A DNA stretch of 64,000 bases from Flavobacterium sp. 140616W15 (GTDB taxonomy: Bacteria > Bacteroidota > Bacteroidia > Flavobacteriales > Flavobacteriaceae), in contig NZ_CP033068.1 in the NCBI RefSeq assembly GCF_003668995.1, positions 1 through 64,000 on the forward strand. The letters run 5' to 3'. Positions 5,102 to 34,726 of the stretch are shown here, one piece after another. The position numbers and the translations under genes are program-made. The notes under the pieces were generated by a model. It ran no database searches and was not told the origin of the DNA. It saw only the letters and a list, made by a program, of their open reading frames with translations. How positions within the stretch are numbered: position 1 is the first letter of the stretch; the number at the start of each line of letters is the position of its first letter.

Positions 5102-6517
5102 ATGAAACCTTAAAAATTTTAATTCTAGTATTGCTGATTCAAGCCAATCTTTTTGGACAACAACCAGCAAAAAGAGAAATGCGGGCCGCTTGATACCGTC
5201 GATAATATAGATTGGCCATCAAAACCAGGGCTTTCAGAAGAAATGAAAGCTGAAATGATAACAATTTTAGATAATTTACGATCATATAATCTAAATACAG
5301 TAGTTTTTCAAATTCGTCCTACGGCCGATGCTTATTATAAATCTACAAAAGAGCAGCGTCACATTGGATAACTGGAACGCAAGGAGTGGCACCCGTTAAT
5401 GATAGATGAAGCAGGAAAAAGAGGGATGAGTGTTCACGTTTGGCTAAATCCATATCGTGTACAGAAAGACACAACCAAGGATGTACTTTCCAAAAACATT
5501 TGTATTTTAAGAAACCAGAGTTATTCCTTACTTACGGAAAAACTAGATATTTTAATCCGGTTACAAAAAACCAGAGATTTGTAGCTTCAGTAGTGGGCGA
5601 AATAGTTCGAAATTATGATATTCAGGCGATACATATGGATGATATTTTTATCCATATAAAAATGAAAAGAATTCCCAGACCAAGTTGCATTTGCCAAAGA
5701 ACCTCGACAATTTAAAGACAAAGACGATTGGAGAAGAGACAATGTCGATTTAATAATCAAGCAAATAAGAGATACAATAATTGCAAATAAACCAGAGGTC
5801 GAATTTGGAATTTCACCTTTTGGGGTATGGCGAAATATAGCAAGAGATTCACAAGGATCAAATACTATGGCAGGAGCAACAAATTATGATGATTTGTATG
5901 CTAATATCTTAAAATGGCAGAAAGAAAATAGACTATGTAACACCTCAACTGTATTGGCACATTGGTTTTGATAGAGCAAATTTTGAAGTTTTAGCAAAAT
6001 GGTGGGCAGAACACAAATATGGAGCAAATGTATATCGGTCATGGAGAGTATAAGATTTCCAAAACATCAAAAGAAGTAGAATGGAGAAGTCCTGATCAAA
6101 TTGTAAAACAAATAGAAATGATTAGAGCCTTACCATTGATAGATGGTTCTATGCATTTTACGGCAAATGTATTTAAAAGGATGGGAGATACACTTAGAAA
6201 ACCTATTATCGAAAAACAATATAAATATATCGCATTAACACCCGAAGCAAATAGAATCACAAGAATAAAACCGCCAAATAAGTGCTTCGATTACTCAAAG
6301 AGGAAAAAGGACAGCTTACTTGGAAGGCAGGATTAAACAATAAAAAATTTGTGATTTATAGATTTCCGAAAAATAACCGATTTCTCTAATCCAGAGAATT
6401 TACTACGTAACCACAGCTACAAAATTAGAAATACCAAATGCTAATTTTGAAAACTATATCTATGCTATTACCGCTTTGAGTACCACACAAACGGAAAGCA
6501 TTCCAATACAATTTTAA
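5102..6517 (+). pseudogene. family 10-like glycosyl hydrolase (GHL10/DUF187, DigH-like), frameshifted
   Basis: After a short signal peptide the reconstructed protein reads REMRAAW..TVDNIDWPSKPG, then LNTVVFQIRPTADAYY, GMSVHVWLNPYRV, IHMDDYFYPY, EFGISPFGVWRN, YVTPQLYWHIGF and HYGANVYIGHG-like motifs. These are the hallmark TIM-barrel strands of PF02638 (GHL10). The characterised relative DigH (YddW) of E. coli cleaves denuded peptidoglycan glycan strands, which fits the neighbouring hexosaminidase and NamZ. A C-terminal beta domain (TKLEIPNANFENYIYAITAL) ends at a TAA at 6515-6517. At least eight frame breaks are present, for example near 5110, 5185, 5365, 5500, 5650, 5930 and 6275. Peptidoglycan as the substrate is inferred from family and context. 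Confidence 0.75.
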
Positions 6518-19632: not shown

Positions 19633-20295
19633 TTAAAAAGTAGTCAGTGCTTTTAAATCGGCAATTGTTGCAGTTGGATTTTCTGCTTTAAAAACAAAAC
19701 TTCCAGCTACTAGAACATCAGCTCCGGCTTCTACCAATTTTTTTGCATTTTTATTGGTTACACCACCATCGATTTCTATAATAGTTGATGCGTTTTTTCT
19801 AGTGATTAAATCTTTTAGCTTTTTTACTTTAGCGTACGTATTTTCGATAAATGATTGTCCACCAAAACCAGGATTTACGCTCATGATGCAAACCAAATCA
19901 ATGTCGTTGATAACATCTTCTAATAAGTCAATGTTTGTATGCGGATTTATCGCTACTCCAGCTTTCATACCTTCAGCTTTTATGGCTTGTAAGGTTCTGT
20001 GAAGATGTGTACAAGCTTCATAATGCACGCTTAATATATTTGCTCCTAAGTCTGCAAAAGTTTTAATGTATCGATCAGGGTCGATAATCATTAAGTGAAC
20101 ATCGATAGTTTTATTAGCATGTTTGTTTATTGCTTCTAAAACTGGCATTCCAAAAGAAATGTTTGGAACAAAAACGCCATCCATAATGTCAATATGAAAC
20201 CAGTCGGCTTGACTGTTGTTAATCATTTCGATATCACGTTGTAAGTTTGCAAAATCGGCTGCAAGAACTGACGGTGCTATTAGTGTATTTTTCAT
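19633..20295 (-). CDS. rpe: ribulose-phosphate 3-epimerase
   Basis: It interconverts D-ribulose 5-phosphate and D-xylulose 5-phosphate in the pentose phosphate pathway. The 220-residue TIM barrel shows the family motifs: IAPSVLAADFANL, WFHIDIMDGVFVPNISFG (metal ligands His and Asp), DVHLMI (His), VNPGFGGQSFI (phosphate loop) and IEIDGGV (catalytic Asp). The start is set at 20295 (MKNTLIAPS), because the family begins there; an upstream in-frame ATG at 20319 adds an atypical eight residues. It is monocistronic. Confidence 0.95.
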   Translation of the reverse strand: MKNTLIAPSVLAADFANLQRDIEMINNSQADWFHIDIMDGVFVPNISFGMPVLEAINKHANKTIDVHLMIIDPDRYIKTFADLGANILSVHYEACTHLHRTLQAIKAEGMKAGVAINPHTNIDLLEDVINDIDLVCIMSVNPGFGGQSFIENTYAKVKKLKDLITRKNASTIIEIDGGVTNKNAKKLVEAGADVLVAGSFVFKAENPTATIADLKALTTF

Positions 20296-20549
20296 TGTGT
20301 AGTTGTGTTGTTTTTGCAAAAGTAGAATTTTAACCGCAAAGATTCACAAGCTTTTATACTAAGTTAGTGAAGAAAATTATTTTTTGAAGATAGAGGGTGT
20401 TTTGCGTGAAGGATTGAGTATTTGTTTGAGCTCTTTTTTTAATGATGTAACGGAGTGTAATTATTTAAAAAAAGCGAGTACGAAAGCCTGACCTGTAGTT
20501 TTTACGGAAGGGCACGCCCAATTATAAAATGCAGTAGGGCTAGTACAAA

Positions 20550-20580
20550 AAAATAAAACTCCGGTAATCAGCCGGAGTTT
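20550..20580 (-). terminator. terminator downstream of rpoD copy 1
   Basis: A 9-bp stem, AAACTCCGG/CCGGAGTTT (20556-20564 with 20572-20580), is followed on the - strand by TTTTATTTTTTT. The same hairpin, slightly altered, lies downstream of rpoD copy 2 (21694-21718). Confidence 0.8.
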
Positions 20581-20642
20581 CAATCATCAATCAAAAAACG
20601 AACAGTCAATCAAACTGTTGTTTGCGTTAAAAACATTTCAAG

Positions 20643-20683
20643 TTTAAGATTTCAGGTTACTCAAAGCAACTTGAAATCTTAAA
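20643..20683. repeat. 16-bp hairpin in rpoD 3' region
   Basis: The arms TTTAAGATTTCAGGTT (20643-20658) and AACTTGAAATCTTAAA (20668-20683) pair with one mismatch around a 9-nt loop, 18 bases after the rpoD stop. A diverged counterpart lies at about 21781-21826. Confidence 0.6.
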
Positions 20684-20700
20684 TCTGAAAATATATATTA

Positions 20701-21564
20701 TTATCCTAAGTAAGTTTTAAGAATTTTACTTCTTGAAGTATGTTTTAATCTACGGATTGCTTTTTCTTTAATCTGACGTACACGCTCACGAGTTAAGTCG
20801 AAAGTTTCTCCAATTTCTTCTAGAGTCATTGGGTGTTGGTCTCCAAGACCAAAGTATAAACGAACTACATCTGCCTCTCTTGGAGTTAATGTTTCTAATG
20901 AACGTTCGATTTCTGTACGTAATGATTCGTGAATTAACTCTCTGTCTGGGTTTGGTGACTCACCTGAACGTAATACATCGTAAAGGTTTGAATCTTCTCC
21001 TTCTACAAGAGGTGCATCCATTGATAAGTGACGACCAGAGTTTTTCATAGACTCTTTTACGTCATTAACAGTCATGTCTAGTTCTTTTGCAATTTCTTCA
21101 GCAGACGGTGGGCGCTCATTAGATTGCTCTAATAATGCATACATCTTGTTGATTTTATTGATAGAACCAATTTTATTTAACGGTAAACGAACGATACGTG
21201 ATTGTTCTGCAAGTGCTTGAAGAATCGATTGACGAATCCACCAAACTGCGTATGATATAAATTTGAAACCACGTGTTTCATCAAAACGTTGTGCAGCTTT
21301 GATCAAACCTAAATTTCCTTCGTTTATTAAATCAGGAAGTGTTAACCCTTGATTTTGATATTGTTTTGCCACTGATACTACGAAACGTAAATTGGCTTTT
21401 GTTAATTTCTCTAATGCTCTTTGATCACCGGCTTTAATCTTCTGTGCTAACTCTACTTCTTCGTCAGCGGTAATTAGGTCAACTTTTCCAATTTCTTGTA
21501 AATATTTGTCTAATGAAGCAGTCTCACGATTGGTTACCTGCTTGGTGATTTTAAGTTGTCTCAT
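20701..21564 (-). CDS. rpoD: primary sigma factor RpoD, copy 1
   Basis: A 287-residue group 1-type sigma-70, of the short form usual in Bacteroidetes (no region 1.1). Region 1.2 is [16 protein letters not shown], region 2 is [58 protein letters not shown], region 3 is around [11 protein letters not shown], and region 4 ends with the [32 protein letters not shown]. It directs RNA polymerase to housekeeping promoters. It lies 268 bases downstream of a near-identical copy in the same orientation, each with its own upstream region and 3' hairpins. Either may be the vegetative factor; copy 1 keeps the acidic Glu in the region 4.2 HTH (IGETF). Confidence 0.93.
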
Positions 21565-21693
21565 GTTTTTGTCTCCTCAATTTTTAAGTGTACAGTTGTT
21601 ATACGTATAGAGTTGCAAAAAAGTTACAATTAAATTAAAAATATTTTAGAATAATAAATCTACGGGTTAAATTAGTTCTAAAAAAAAAGAATA

Positions 21694-21718
21694 AAACTCC
21701 AGTAATCAGCCGGAGTTT
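21694..21718 (-). terminator. terminator downstream of rpoD copy 2
   Basis: AAACTCC pairs with GGAGTTT (21694-21700 with 21712-21718), followed on the - strand by TTTTATTCTTTTTTTT. One A-C mismatch replaces a base pair present in copy 1. Confidence 0.7.
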
Positions 21719-21832
21719 CAATCATCAATCAAAAAACGAATAGTCAGTCAAACTGTTGTTTGAGTTAAAAAAAGTTTCAGGTTTAAATTTTCAGGTTACT
21801 CCAAACAACATGAAACTTTAAACTAAATTGTA

Positions 21833-22696
21833 TTACCCCAAATAAGTTTTAAGAATTTTACATCTTGAAGAATGTTTTAATCTACGGATTGCTTTTTCTC
21901 TAATTTGGCGTACACGCTCACGGGTTAAATCAAAGGTTCCTCCAATTTCTTCTAATGTCATTGGGTTTTGATTTCCAAGACCAAAGTACAAACGAACAAC
22001 ATCTGCCTCTCTTGGAGTTAGAGTGTCTAATGAGCGTTCTATTTCGGTGCTCAATGATTCGTGGATTAATTTTTTATCTGGATTTGGAGATTCATCAGAA
22101 CGTAATACGTCGTAAAGATTGGAATCTTCTCCATCAACAAGAGGAGCGTCCATTGACAAGTGACGGCCCGAGTTTTTCATAGAGTCCTTTACGTCATGTA
22201 TTGTCATATCTAGTTCTTTTGCTATTTCTTCGACAGACGGCGCACGCTCATTAGTTTGTTCTAATATTGCATACATTTTGTTGATTTTATTGATAGAACC
22301 AATTTTATTAAGTGGCAAGCGAACAATACGAGATTGTTCCGCTAATGCTTGAAGAATTGCTTGTCGAATCCACCAAACTGCGTAGGATATAAATTTGAAA
22401 CCGCGTGTTTCATCAAAACGCTGTCCTGCTTTGATTAAACCTAAATTTCCTTCGTTTATTAAATCAGGAAGTGTTAAGCCTTGATTTTGATATTGTTTTG
22501 CTACCGAAACGACAAAACGCAAGTTGGCTTTTGTTAATTTTTCTAATGCATGATGATCACCGGTTTTAATCCTCTGTGCTAATTCTACTTCTTCTTCAGC
22601 GGTAATTAGGTTAACTTTTCCAATTTCCTGTAAATATTTGTCTAATGAAGCAGTCTCTCGATTGGTTACTTGCTTGGTAATTTTAAGTTGTCTCAT
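21833..22696 (-). CDS. primary-type sigma factor RpoD, copy 2
   Basis: 287 residues from the ATG at 22696 (MRQLKITKQ), which matches copy 1; an upstream in-frame ATG at 22711 is less likely. By eye about 27 residues differ from copy 1, roughly 90% identity. The changes fall mostly in region 3 and linkers ([27 protein letters not shown]) but also in region 4: [29 protein letters not shown] has Gly for Glu in the HTH and Arg for Lys. Region 2.4 ([21 protein letters not shown]) is intact. The frame is fully open, which argues for a functional protein rather than a decaying duplicate. Confidence 0.92.
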
Positions 22697-22775
22697 ATTT
22701 TCTCTTCTCAATTTTTAAAAGTGTACATAATGCTATGCATATGGAGTTGTAAAAAAATTACAATAATTTAGATTG

Positions 22776-23320
22776 CAAAAAAGTTGTTACCGCAATGAAA
22801 ACCGCTGTAATTGAATATAATTGTAATCGTTAAATAATGGGATAAAAGACTTGTGTCTGTAGTTTTTTGTTTTAATAAGTAAGGGGGATTACTCTAAATT
22901 AACAAAAAACAATTTATGCAGAATTAGAATTTATTCTGAGAAAATGAGACCAAAGTTTTTTAAAAACAGCTGTTATAGAATTATATTCTATTGATGGCTA
23001 TAACCCAAATATACTAATAAAAGGAGGGTGTTCCTAATGGATCGTGTAATCTGAGGTTTTAAATGGTTAAAAATCAAGTGAGTGAAAAATGATTGTGACA
23101 ATGAAGTAACAAGGTTTTTTAGGAAACCATAAGATAGCAGCTTAAATCATTCGGAAAGCTTAGTAATTACATATATAATTATGTTTTTGATAAAAGAGCC
23201 AATTATGTAAAAGGGTATGAGGATATTATGCTTATTATTAGTTTTGTACCAGCAGTTTTAGTTTTATTTATCTAAAAACGAGTCCCTTATTTAAGTATAA
23301 TTTGCTTTTTTTACACGAAA
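22776..23320. other. 545-bp gap upstream of rpoD copy 2: no supported gene
   Basis: The rpoD copy 2 promoter must lie at the left edge. The rest is AT-rich. The only notable items are AAAAGGAGGG at about 23021-23030, a strong Shine-Dalgarno-like word followed by a five-codon frame, and a 45-codon open stretch without a start (about 23142-23274) whose end is hydrophobic (MLIISFVPAVLVLFI). Neither is enough to call a gene. Confidence 0.5.
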
Positions 23321-23350
23321 AACCCCAATTCAAATAAATGAATTGGGGTT
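23321..23350. terminator. terminator, copy 1 of a repeated CCCCAATTCA hairpin
   Basis: The stem AACCCCAATTCA/TGAATTGGGGTT (23321-23332 with 23339-23350) has a 6-nt loop. The same hairpin occurs at 30005-30042 and 32522-32557. Here it ends the outer-membrane operon transcribed from 29897. Confidence 0.88.
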
Positions 23351-23417
23351 TACTAGACACTTAAATCTGATAAGAATCTCTTTTTCTATCGTATTTAAAT
23401 TAGAATACTAAATACGG

Positions 23418-25157
23418 TTATAAAGAATTTTTTACTTCAATGATTTCTTTTAATGAAATTGGAGTTCCAGTTTTGGTAAAACCTTCAAGTCTTACTTCAA
23501 ACGTTCCAGAAATGTCAGATGTATAAAATGAATTATTACTATCAGTATTTAGTTTCACATCAGGATTCCAAAACAATTGATTTCTGAAGTCTGGGATACG
23601 TTCGTTATCTGCTGAATCAGCATAAGTTATGTTGTTGTATGTTTTTTTGGGCTGTGGTCTCAAAACTGAGGCTTTTACAATATAACTTCCTGTTTGGTTG
23701 CTTTTGAAATCTTTATCGAATGTTGTAAAATTAATTAATCCATTAAAAGATTTTGGGCCCATATAATATCTTCCAATAACGACATCAATTTTATAAATAT
23801 TTTTCATGTTGTATGTCATCAGTTCATTTTGATTCTCTAAGTATAAACCATCAACTAGAACTAAAGCAGATTCAGGTAACTGTGGGAAATAAAGTGGATC
23901 AGAAACATATAGATAGGTTTTGTCTCCTTTTTGTTTATGATATATTTCTGTAGCAATTTCAGTCATTGTTTCTTTTAGTGTTCTGAATCTAGTAAAATCA
24001 TCTAATACATATTCTTTTGCAAGAGGGAAATAAAAAGGTTCTAATGTTGGCGTTTTTATTATGTTGTCTAACTTTTTATGATAATATGCATTTTCAATCT
24101 GGGCAGAAATAGATCTGTCCAAAAGACTTTCTTTTATGGAATATGATAAAGTAGCATTTGGATTAAAAGATAAATTTGAATAATCTATTTCTGGAGCATT
24201 GTTTATTTTTAGATCGTAATTACTAGCTTTATCATCAATGATCTGAATAATAACGTCTGGTGTATAATACGTTTTGTTTACATAGAAAATAAAATTACCA
24301 TTAGAATCTGTTTTTACAATTTTAAATGCAAAAGATTTTCCAGGTATTGATAATCCAACTGCTATGTTATTGGTGTTGTCAGTGCTGTTTTTTGCTAAAA
24401 TTTTTCCAGAAATGATTTCTCCTCTAATTTCAGGTAGGATTATTTTTTTATCTTGATTTTGTAAATCAAAAACTAGTGGGTATGATTGTTTAGAAGAAAA
24501 ATCTACAGCAGAAATTTGATCGTTTGCTGGTATATTGTCAAGTTTTCGAACTGATAAAGAGTACTCACCATCTTTGAGAATGGTATTTTCAGATTCGATT
24601 TTCAAATCTACTAATTCACGATTTGTAAACGTTTTTTTATTGAATTTAAAGGCAATGTTTTCATTTGTAATACTAGTCGATGAATCTTCAGTATTATTTT
24701 TTGATGAAGCTATTAGGCTATTCTCAGTTGTTTTCTTATCTACAACTTTGTACGGATTAACAATGTTAATGTCTAATTGGAATAGCTCTGAAATAGGTTT
24801 GTTTAACATCCAATTTGTGTAGCCAATTAGTTTGTAATTTCCAGTTTTTAAAGTGGTAGGGATAAAATAATCCCCTTGTCCAGTTGCATTTTCTAATGCA
24901 ATTTTTGTTTTAAAAACGGATTTCTTATCATTATCTACTAACTCAACATAAGCAATTTTGCTTATGTTGCTAGGAATCTTGTCAGTCGATTTTAGGCAGT
25001 AAATTTTATACTGTAAGGTTTCTCCAGACACAAACGATGAACCATTTGTGTGAATAAAAATGGTTTCATCTAAATTGATGATTTGTGGCGCTTGTGCTGT
25101 TATTATTTGTATTTTAATAAATACTAATAATAAAATGATTTTTTTTAATTTGTCCAA
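23418..25157 (-). CDS. MG2-like/TonB-plug-type envelope protein of a TBDR operon
   Basis: 579 residues with a signal peptide (MDKLKKIILLLVFIKIQIITAQA). The N-terminal part (IIHTNGSSFVSGETLQYKIYCLK, TGNYKLIGYTNWMLNK) looks like an MG2 macroglobulin-type beta domain, as found in large Bacteroidetes proteins that lack a beta-barrel. The later part (EYVLDDFTRFRTLKETMTEIATEIYHKQKGDKTYLYVSDPLYFPQLPESALVLVDGLYLENQNEL) resembles a plug-like carboxy region. It is the last gene of the operon and overlaps the DUF4249 gene by 13 bases. The role is unknown; co-operation with the receptor at the cell surface is inferred from the operon. Confidence 0.65.
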   Translation of the reverse strand: MDKLKKIILLLVFIKIQIITAQAPQIINLDETIFIHTNGSSFVSGETLQYKIYCLKSTDKIPSNISKIAYVELVDNDKKSVFKTKIALENATGQGDYFIPTTLKTGNYKLIGYTNWMLNKPISELFQLDINIVNPYKVVDKKTTENSLIASSKNNTEDSSTSITNENIAFKFNKKTFTNRELVDLKIESENTILKDGEYSLSVRKLDNIPANDQISAVDFSSKQSYPLVFDLQNQDKKIILPEIRGEIISGKILAKNSTDNTNNIAVGLSIPGKSFAFKIVKTDSNGNFIFYVNKTYYTPDVIIQIIDDKASNYDLKINNAPEIDYSNLSFNPNATLSYSIKESLLDRSISAQIENAYYHKKLDNIIKTPTLEPFYFPLAKEYVLDDFTRFRTLKETMTEIATEIYHKQKGDKTYLYVSDPLYFPQLPESALVLVDGLYLENQNELMTYNMKNIYKIDVVIGRYYMGPKSFNGLINFTTFDKDFKSNQTGSYIVKASVLRPQPKKTYNNITYADSADNERIPDFRNQLFWNPDVKLNTDSNNSFYTSDISGTFEVRLEGFTKTGTPISLKEIIEVKNSL

Positions 25158-32518: not shown

Positions 32519-32602
32519 ACGAAAAACCCCAATTCAAATAAATGAATTGGGGTTTTTTCTATAAATAAACCTTTAGTAAACTAAGATCTGATTACTCTTT
32601 TT
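32519..32602. repeat. right copy of the ~85-bp direct repeat (functional pnp 3' end)
   Basis: This matches 30003-30090 in the same orientation. It includes the terminator hairpin and the last codons of pnp. The two copies flank the HTH/surface-protein module. Confidence 0.8.
32522..32557. terminator. terminator, copy 3 of the repeated CCCCAATTCA hairpin
   Basis: The stem AAAAACCCCAATTCA with TGAATTGGGGTTTTT serves converging transcripts: the gene ending at 32512 (+) and pnp ending at 32573 (-). Confidence 0.9.
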
Positions 32603-34726
32603 CTCCTCACGTGGAGGTCTTGGAAGAAGTGCTTTTCTTGACACTTTTTCTTTTCTAGTTTTAGGATCAAGTCCAAGATATTTAACTTGAAAAATATCTC
32701 CCATGTTTACTACGTCAGTAACGTTTTCAGTACGTTCCCAAGCTAGCTCAGATACGTGAAGTAAAACTTCATTTCCTGGTGCAGCAGTATATTCTACTAC
32801 AGCTCCAAAATCAAGCAATTTAATTACTTTAACTTCATAAGCTTCGCCCATTTGAGGTTTGAAAGTAATAGATTGAATTTTAGCTAAAACAGCTTCAATT
32901 CCTGCAGGATCTGTACCTAATATTTCGATAACACCTTGTTCATCAACTTCATTGATTACAATAGTTGTTCCAGTAGCTTTTTGTAATTCTTGAATTACTT
33001 TTCCTCCAGGTCCAATTAATGCTCCAATAAAGTTTCCAGGGATAGTTCTAGTGATGATTTTTGGAGAGTGTGCTTTAACGTCTGCTCTAGGAGCAGCAAT
33101 AGTCTCAGTTAATTTTCCTAAAATGTGTAAACGTCCTTCACGTGCTTGCCCTAAAGCTTGCTCCATGATGTCGTAACGTAAACCATCAATTTTGATATCC
33201 ATTTGGCAAGCTGTGATACCGTCAGCAGTTCCAGTTACTTTAAAGTCCATATCTCCTAAGTGATCTTCATCACCTAAAATATCAGATAATACAGCAAACT
33301 TTTCACCGTCAGTAATTAATCCCATAGCAATTCCAGAAACTGGTTTTACCATTTGAACTCCAGCATCCATCAAAGCCATTGTACCAGCACAAACTGTAGC
33401 CATAGAAGAAGAACCGTTAGATTCTAAAACCTCAGATACAATACGGATAGTGTAAGGACAATCAGCAGGAATCATGTTTTTTAACGCTCTTTGAGCTAAG
33501 TTACCGTGACCAACTTCTCTTCTTGAAGTTCCTCTTAGAGGTTTTGCTTCACCAGTAGAGAAAGGAGGGAAGTTATAGTGTAAGTAGAATTTCTCTTCAC
33601 CTTGTTCAGATGGAGAATCAATTTGGTTAGCTTCTCTAGATGTTCCTAAAGTTACTGTAGCCAATGCTTGAGTTTCTCCACGTGTAAATAAAGAAGAACC
33701 GTGAACTCTTGGTAAATAATCAGTTTCGCACCAGATTGGTCTGATGTCTGTTGTTTTTCTACCATCTAAACGAACACCTAATTCTAATACTACATTACGA
33801 ACAGCTTCTTTGTTTGTTTTGTAGAAATATTTAGAAACTAAATCTCCATCAGCAGCTAATTCTTCTTCAGTAAATAAAGCTTTTACTTCTTCTTTTACTT
33901 CGGCAAATGCAGCAGTTCTTTCGTGTTTAGCTGAACCAACTTTTGCAATAGCATATATTTTATCGTAAGCAGCAGCTTTTACTTTTTTGTAAATTTCTTC
34001 GTTTTCTTTCTCACCTTCGTAAGTACGAATTTCTTTTTTACCAAAAGCAGCTTGCAAACGCAATTGAGCCTGAATTTGAACTTTAATAGCTTCGTGAGCA
34101 AATTTGATAGCTTCTACCATTTCAGCTTCTGAAATTTCTTTCATTTCTCCTTCAACCATTGCAACTGAATCCATAGAAGCTCCAATCATCATGTCGATGT
34201 CAGATTTTGCTAAGTCTTCTCTACTTGGGTTGATTACAAATTTTCCATCGATACGTGCTACACGTACTTCAGAAATTAAGTTGTAAAAAGGAATGTCTGA
34301 AACTGCTAATGCTGCAGATGCAGCTAAACCAGCTAATGCATCAGGCATTACTTCTTCGTCATGAGACATTAATTGAATCATAACTTGCGTTTCAGCATGG
34401 TAATCATCTGGGAAAAGCGGACGTAAAACACGGTCTACTAATCTCATTGTTAATACTTCGCTATCGCTAGGACGAGCTTCTCTCTTGAAGAAACCTCCTG
34501 GAAAACGACCAGCTGCCGCAAATTTTTCGCGATAATCTACCGTTAATGGTAAGAAATCAACATTTGGGTTAGCGGTACGAGCTGAAACTGCTGTTGCAAG
34601 TATCATCGTGTCGCCCATTCTTACTACTACAGAACCATCAGCTTGTTTAGCTAAACGTCCTGTCTCGATTGTGATGCTTCTGCCATCACCTAAATCGATT
34701 TTTTCTACAAATAATTGTGGAATCAT
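32573..34726 (-). CDS. pnp: polyribonucleotide nucleotidyltransferase (PNPase)
   Basis: A 717-residue phosphorolytic 3'-5' exoribonuclease of mRNA decay. Two RNase PH-like cores are visible ([60 protein letters not shown] with [27 protein letters not shown]). A KH domain with GxxG ([21 protein letters not shown], about 565-620) and an S1 domain ([20 protein letters not shown], about 630-690) complete the standard architecture. It follows rpsO, the classical order. The last codons are duplicated at 30057-30090. Confidence 0.97.

Follow-up and report, generated by a model that had tools for sequence, protein, structure and literature searches.

The first 64,000 nucleotides of a contig of Flavobacterium sp. 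140616W15 (the window) carry two complete rpoD genes in tandem: a canonical housekeeping copy (c1) and, upstream of it, a diverged paralogue (c2). Taken together, the comparisons described below indicate that c2 probably functions as an RpoD-like alternative sigma factor of recent birth, one that would resemble group 2 sigma factors in its behaviour. As far as we have searched, its recent tandem birth, the split between the two upstream regions and the substitutions at sites where older paralogues vary too are new: a literature search, with subscription journals mostly outside its scope, returned neither a tandem Flavobacterium rpoD pair nor the upstream element discussed here.

Structure and reality of the gene pair

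Both genes have an ATG start, 287 codons and zero internal stops, and c2 lies upstream of c1 on the same strand (Table 1); the ORF listing also offers c2 an alternative TTG start at 22711. This bears out the description of two intact, head-to-tail genes in an earlier, sequence-only reading of this DNA, whose approximate count of 27 amino acid differences proved by alignment to be exact, and whose Gly-for-Glu replacement in the region 4.2 helix-turn-helix of c2 is real in the alignment (E253G). That reading was also right that the duplication covers the flanks and a hairpin after each copy, with homology reaching ~150 bases downstream, although the upstream homology is ~70 rather than ~80 bases long. 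Sigma-70 regions 1.2, 2, 3 and 4 score above the Pfam cut-offs in both proteins, and the best NCBIfam matches of both are RpoD models, under their curated cut-offs, with the general sigma-70 model passed. The segments WWIRQ and LTRERVRQI are the same in c1 and c2. An unusual primary sigma factor of Bacteroidetes was reportedly described by Vingadassalom in 2005; c1, short and without region 1.1, is presumably of the Bacteroidetes primary type, of which c2 is a diverged duplicate.

Table 1. Features of the rpoD locus (window coordinates)
Feature	Position	Strand	Basis or remark
rpe, downstream neighbour of rpoD	19633-20295	-	Locus comparison
Terminator-like hairpin 3' of c1	20554-20582	-	Hairpin scan; kept in relatives
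c1, canonical housekeeping RpoD gene, 287 aa	20701-21564	-	Near-identity to single-copy relatives, rpe neighbour, Pfam regions
TGTAAC-N17-CGTA element upstream of c1	21602-21628	-	ECF-type promoter by resemblance
Duplicate terminator-like hairpin 3' of c2, between c2 and c1	21692-21720	-	Hairpin scan
c2, diverged tandem RpoD paralogue, 287 aa	21833-22696	-	27 aa differences, c2 monophyly, dN/dS
Degenerate counterpart upstream of c2, TTGTAAT...ATGCATA	22734-22763	-	Alignment to c1 element; both boxes lost
TAnnTTTG box alone (candidate), 317 bases before c2	23006-23013	-	No TTG at 16-24 bases
pnp-like gene	32573-34726	-	Locus comparison; ~1 kb upstream of c2 in F. frigoritolerans

Each copy is followed by a terminator-like hairpin of 11 pairs with a T run; the scan found two where 1.5 were expected by chance, so the case for these hairpins is their conservation in relatives. 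An Rfam search over 20300-23500 gave zero matches, and E. coli-type promoters were found at the expected frequency (12 against 11.0). The source genome is a single contig of 4.94 Mb. An assembly artefact or a recent copying error is extremely improbable, because the copies differ at 107 of 864 nucleotides (12.4%) and the same tandem pair recurs in three further assemblies; nothing was found in favour of such an error.

Distribution and origin of the pair

A protein search of 398 Flavobacterium genomes, with at most six candidates scored per genome and the table read by eye, gave a match in 381 and two matches in five. Four of the 398 contain a tandem pair, in identical order: the source genome, Flavobacterium sp. 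ALJ2, F. frigoritolerans LS1R47 and a fourth genome, G276. In the fifth genome (G196) the second match is a 129-residue piece with c1 sequence that ends at a contig end, and it was rejected as a pair. A single rpoD, which the sequence-only reading had taken to be normal for Bacteroidetes, is thus the rule within the genus, and the pair is far from the ubiquity that the same reading had considered. The c1 proteins of the four genomes carry 0-1 changes relative to that of the window, and c1 differs by 0-2 amino acids from the rpoD product of each single-copy relative compared, the near-invariance characteristic of a group 1 RpoD; c2 lacks it, differing from c1 by 20-38 amino acids (87-93% identity), with 38 in G276. 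A search of 296 relatives at 1e-172 returned the source genome only, G313 (sp. ALJ2) and G298 (F. frigoritolerans) being outside that sample and a c2 like that of G276 falling below the cut-off, so that this search contributes little. Scanning named genomes for the E253G pattern retrieved only F. frigoritolerans, sp. ALJ2 and Cryomorpha ignava; in C. ignava two RpoD-like genes lie on separate contigs (L046, L054), and one of them encodes Gly at the residue matching E253.

In the DNA tree the four c2 genes are monophyletic (bootstrap 100 for the full gene; 98, 95 and 99 for its three thirds) and fall inside a clade (100) that also contains the c1 genes and rpoD of three single-copy relatives (G004, G385 and G175); their attachment within this clade is weakly placed (49 in the full tree, 76 with third positions). 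A tree of rpe from 12 species sets the four pair-bearing species apart from the eight others (support 72), which fits a single duplication without later loss. The protein tree groups c2 with Flavobacterium rpoD (98), apart from 46 sampled other RpoD-like genes, and so gives no common descent of c2 with the older extra RpoD-like sigma factors of the family. These trees support the birth of c2 inside Flavobacterium, by tandem duplication of rpoD in an ancestor of at least four species.

Spacer sequences 3' of the genes are more alike within a genome (0.87 between c1 and c2 of F. frigoritolerans, 0.81 in sp. ALJ2) than between the c1 spacers of these two species (0.54). Two independent duplications, which such likeness could indicate, were dropped because all four c2 genes share derived residues; we prefer partial gene conversion between the tandem copies at the 3' end.

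Downstream, the ORF that we take to be rpe, for ribulose-phosphate 3-epimerase, follows rpoD in all five genomes compared. The interval between rpoD and the presumed pnp-like gene is variable, and c2 is preceded by different genes in the source genome and G276, in sp. ALJ2 and in F. frigoritolerans. In single-copy G385 a gene resembling the window ORF at 23418-25157 (42% identity) stands directly before rpoD, and the upstream DNA of G004 is, by eye, similar to that of G385. The ~720 bases upstream of c2 in the window (22697-23417) align over their full length with G276 and have no Rfam match. In F. frigoritolerans the stretch before c2 (L040, ~5268-6340) has an end similar to that of the monooxygenase-like gene in L039 (3746-5128), contains no listed open frame of 90 or more amino acids and looks like a remnant.

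Selection and codon usage

The comparison of dN/dS between the copies, as proposed in the sequence-only reading, gave 0.027-0.102 among the c2 genes of the four species and values no higher than 0.014 among their c1 genes. The corresponding dS values are 0.45-0.90 for c2 and 0.08-0.21 for c1. Between the window genome and the other three, c2 (0.57-0.71) lies within the range of neighbouring genes (0.28-0.80 in 19 of 21 comparisons, with one at 1.8 and pnp at 0.096) and thus evolves at the usual synonymous rate, whereas c1 (0.08-0.19) is low like pnp and hence under the constraint expected where expression is high. These rates support purifying selection on c2 without the strong synonymous-site constraint of c1. 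Measured against the ribosomal-region codon set of each own genome, codon adaptation in the source genome is 0.676 for c1 and 0.560 for c2, the median of 38 window ORFs, some of them perhaps not genes, being 0.6045. The difference is similarly clear in G276 (0.674 against 0.538) and slight in sp. ALJ2 (0.639 against 0.618) and F. frigoritolerans (0.645 against 0.630).

The relaxed codon usage and faster protein change of c2, the latter up to 38 amino acids in G276, would also fit the slow decay of a redundant copy, kept as a back-up or for dosage and lacking a separate function, which is the main alternative to an alternative sigma factor, and the unevenness of the codon effect among the four genomes likewise tells against our preferred reading. 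The rarity of the pair in the genus and the unchanged WWIRQ and LTRERVRQI segments are in keeping with such a copy. We nevertheless consider a decaying duplicate rather improbable: weak expression is a poor means of raising dosage, dN/dS is well below 1 at a c2 dS of 0.45-0.90, eleven positions are consistently changed in four species, and the upstream element of c1 is lost in every c2.

A conserved upstream element absent from c2

ECF promoters are marked by AAC and CGT boxes, which the element upstream of c1 resembles. Of 97 distinct canonical rpoD genes (duplicates removed), 95 have TGTAAC-N16/17-CGTA no more than 150 bases from the start. Within the genus it is present in all 67, which were mostly chosen as best matches and so do not sample the genus at random; beyond the genus 28 of 30 have it, covering five families of the order, both misses being the two genes sampled from a further family (f6). 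None of the four c2 genes has the element, which places c2 outside canonical rpoD if the element is taken as a membership feature, a definition of our own rather than a textbook criterion. Cryomorpha lacks it before both of its RpoD-like genes, though one is presumably canonical. Among 46 other RpoD-like genes parsed from 48 loci (all but L129 and L130), only L088 has the element; because it is also the best rpoD match of its genome (G465), L088 is probably canonical and was left out of the counts of extra genes (n = 45).

Within the source genome TGTAAC-N16/17-CGTA is about as frequent as expected by chance, with 13 matches and, for a reversed control, 11, which rules it out as a frequent promoter of this genome, and none but c1's own lies within 5 kb of the sigma genes examined. 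The longer form TTGTAAC-N15-19-ACGTATAA occurs once. The eight genes of the four tandem pairs all lack a TTG-N16-24-TAnnTTTG promoter within 400 bases, which counts against our preferred reading of c2; like the window c2, that of G276 is preceded by a TAnnTTTG box alone, at -316. A CGT-box ECF motif (SM6) has been described in F. psychrophilum, and rpoD is absent from the selection of promoters printed there (PMC9723704).

The site of the lost element (~22747-22763 in the window; also L039 and L040) is occupied by an inverted repeat, TTGTAA-N4/5-TTACAA, seen by eye in the source genome and sp. ALJ2. The repeat has one mismatch and a shorter gap in F. frigoritolerans and is absent in G276; it is a possible operator.

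Residue changes in c2 and in older paralogues

Thirteen positions differ from c1 in all four c2 proteins. Eight carry the same residue throughout (D29N, D34E, A91G, S113A, V166I, E188D, E253G and K266R), D242 is Asn in three and Ser in one, and c2 has two kinds of residue each at G201, E209 and L144 and four at R49. With R49 and L144 set aside, the remaining eleven are invariant across a comparison set of 27 other Flavobacterium rpoD genes, whose only variable positions are 42, 49 and 152; L144 is constant in these 27 and different in other genera.

We contrasted 45 extra RpoD-like genes from the wider family with 40 canonical ones (27 from Flavobacterium, 13 from other genera), counting related sequences as independent, so that the figures are only a guide. 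Position 253 is changed in 29/45 extra and 0/40 canonical genes, and Arg at 266 (29/45 against 0/40), Ala at 113 (13/45 against 0/40), Glu at 34 (27/45 against 2/40) and Asn at 242 (15/45 against 3/40) are similarly distributed. Position 29 is changed in 24/45 against 0/40, mostly to Pro rather than Asn. The specific replacements A91G and E253G occur in none of the 45 extra genes, and there is no contrast at V166I (8/45 against 9/40) or E188D (4/45 against 4/40); the absence of enrichment for A91G, V166I and E188D weakens the case for an alternative sigma factor.

Residues 253 and 266 may act together. In the SigA of entry 8x6f, K and E stand at the positions of E253 and K266 of c1, a charge swap which suggests that the two residues pair. 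The 45 extra genes, which are related sequences, comprise 11 with E and K, five with E and another residue, five with another residue and K, and 24 with neither (p = 0.001). Having G253 and R266, c2 would break such a pair.

The different upstream region, and substitutions where older paralogues vary as well, could point further, to a fully specialised alternative sigma factor with a distinct promoter set and its own stress or nutrient signal. This seems unlikely, as only 20-38 residues differ and none lies in WWIRQ or LTRERVRQI.

RpoD-like genes in the wider family

Outside the genus, 129 of 296 family genomes gave one match at E<=1e-70, 163 gave two to four and four gave none. Searching 40 of the 163 again yielded 51 extra RpoD-like genes, 46-83% identical to c1, none of which adjoins the best rpoD of its genome; 45 of the 51 entered the residue comparison. 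The extra genes L087 and L089-L132 form several tree groups, and the upstream element is present in none of those parsed. A single rpoD therefore does not hold as the norm at family level, given the 163 genomes with two to four RpoD-like genes and the published homologues of Dokdonia. Dokdonia MED134, PRO95 and 4H-3-7-5 have two RpoD homologues, the promoter consensus of the second being reported as unknown (PMC3587595). The second Dokdonia protein is, like c2, an RpoD-type sigma factor beside a housekeeping one, in a marine flavobacterium (PMC3587595). In contrast to the non-adjacent older extras, c2 adjoins c1 and is far closer to it in sequence; the Dokdonia gene is compared here by its description only.

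Proposed role of c2

Group 2 sigma factors are RpoD-like and dispensable, as exemplified by RpoS and the cyanobacterial group 2 sigmas. Like these, c2 is an additional gene, with regions 2 and 4 close to those of the primary sigma and promoter-reading segments nearly identical to it; unlike them, it is much younger and stands in tandem with the primary gene.

The sequences support a tandem duplication of rpoD in an ancestor shared by at least four species of the genus, after which both copies were kept intact with separate terminator-like hairpins. The near-invariant c1 would have remained the housekeeping sigma; c2 has lost the TGTAAC/CGTA element and the c1-type constraint on synonymous sites and keeps purifying selection and shared derived residues. 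It may be made separately, at lower or conditional levels. As its promoter-reading segments are retained, c2 should work as an RpoD-type sigma factor, binding the same core, and because the DNA-contacting segments are unchanged it would read mostly the same TTG/TAnnTTTG promoters. The changes S113A beside the -10 reading helix, A91G near the core-binding region, and E253G and K266R in the region 4.2 helix-turn-helix would favour promoters or activators less dependent on the normal -35/region 4 contacts. The residue changes and the lost element together point to expression that is separate and probably weaker, and to a changed use of region 4. The sequence-only reading had suggested that the copies split roles or that c2 serves a subset of promoters; a split finds support in the conservation of c1 and in the divergence of c2, which has another upstream region and remains under purifying selection, and a role at a subset of promoters or conditions is plausible.

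A broader reading, which we offer tentatively, is that the Flavobacteriales housekeeping sigma is under a deeply conserved ECF-type promoter, that second RpoD genes repeatedly escape it while changing 253, 266 and 113, and that the present pair would be the first stage of this process, with c2 already an alternative sigma.

Implications

With parent and child adjacent and differing by 27 residues, in a genus for which genetic tools exist, the pair offers a natural experiment in the possible conversion of a primary sigma factor into an alternative one. Attention is also drawn to a strongly conserved, putative promoter-like element that precedes rpoD across several families of the order, and to second RpoD genes, the promoters of which the Dokdonia study reports as unknown (PMC3587595). 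From its sequence features c2 looks like a specialised helper of RNA polymerase, and second RpoD-like genes of such a kind occur in the wider family too.
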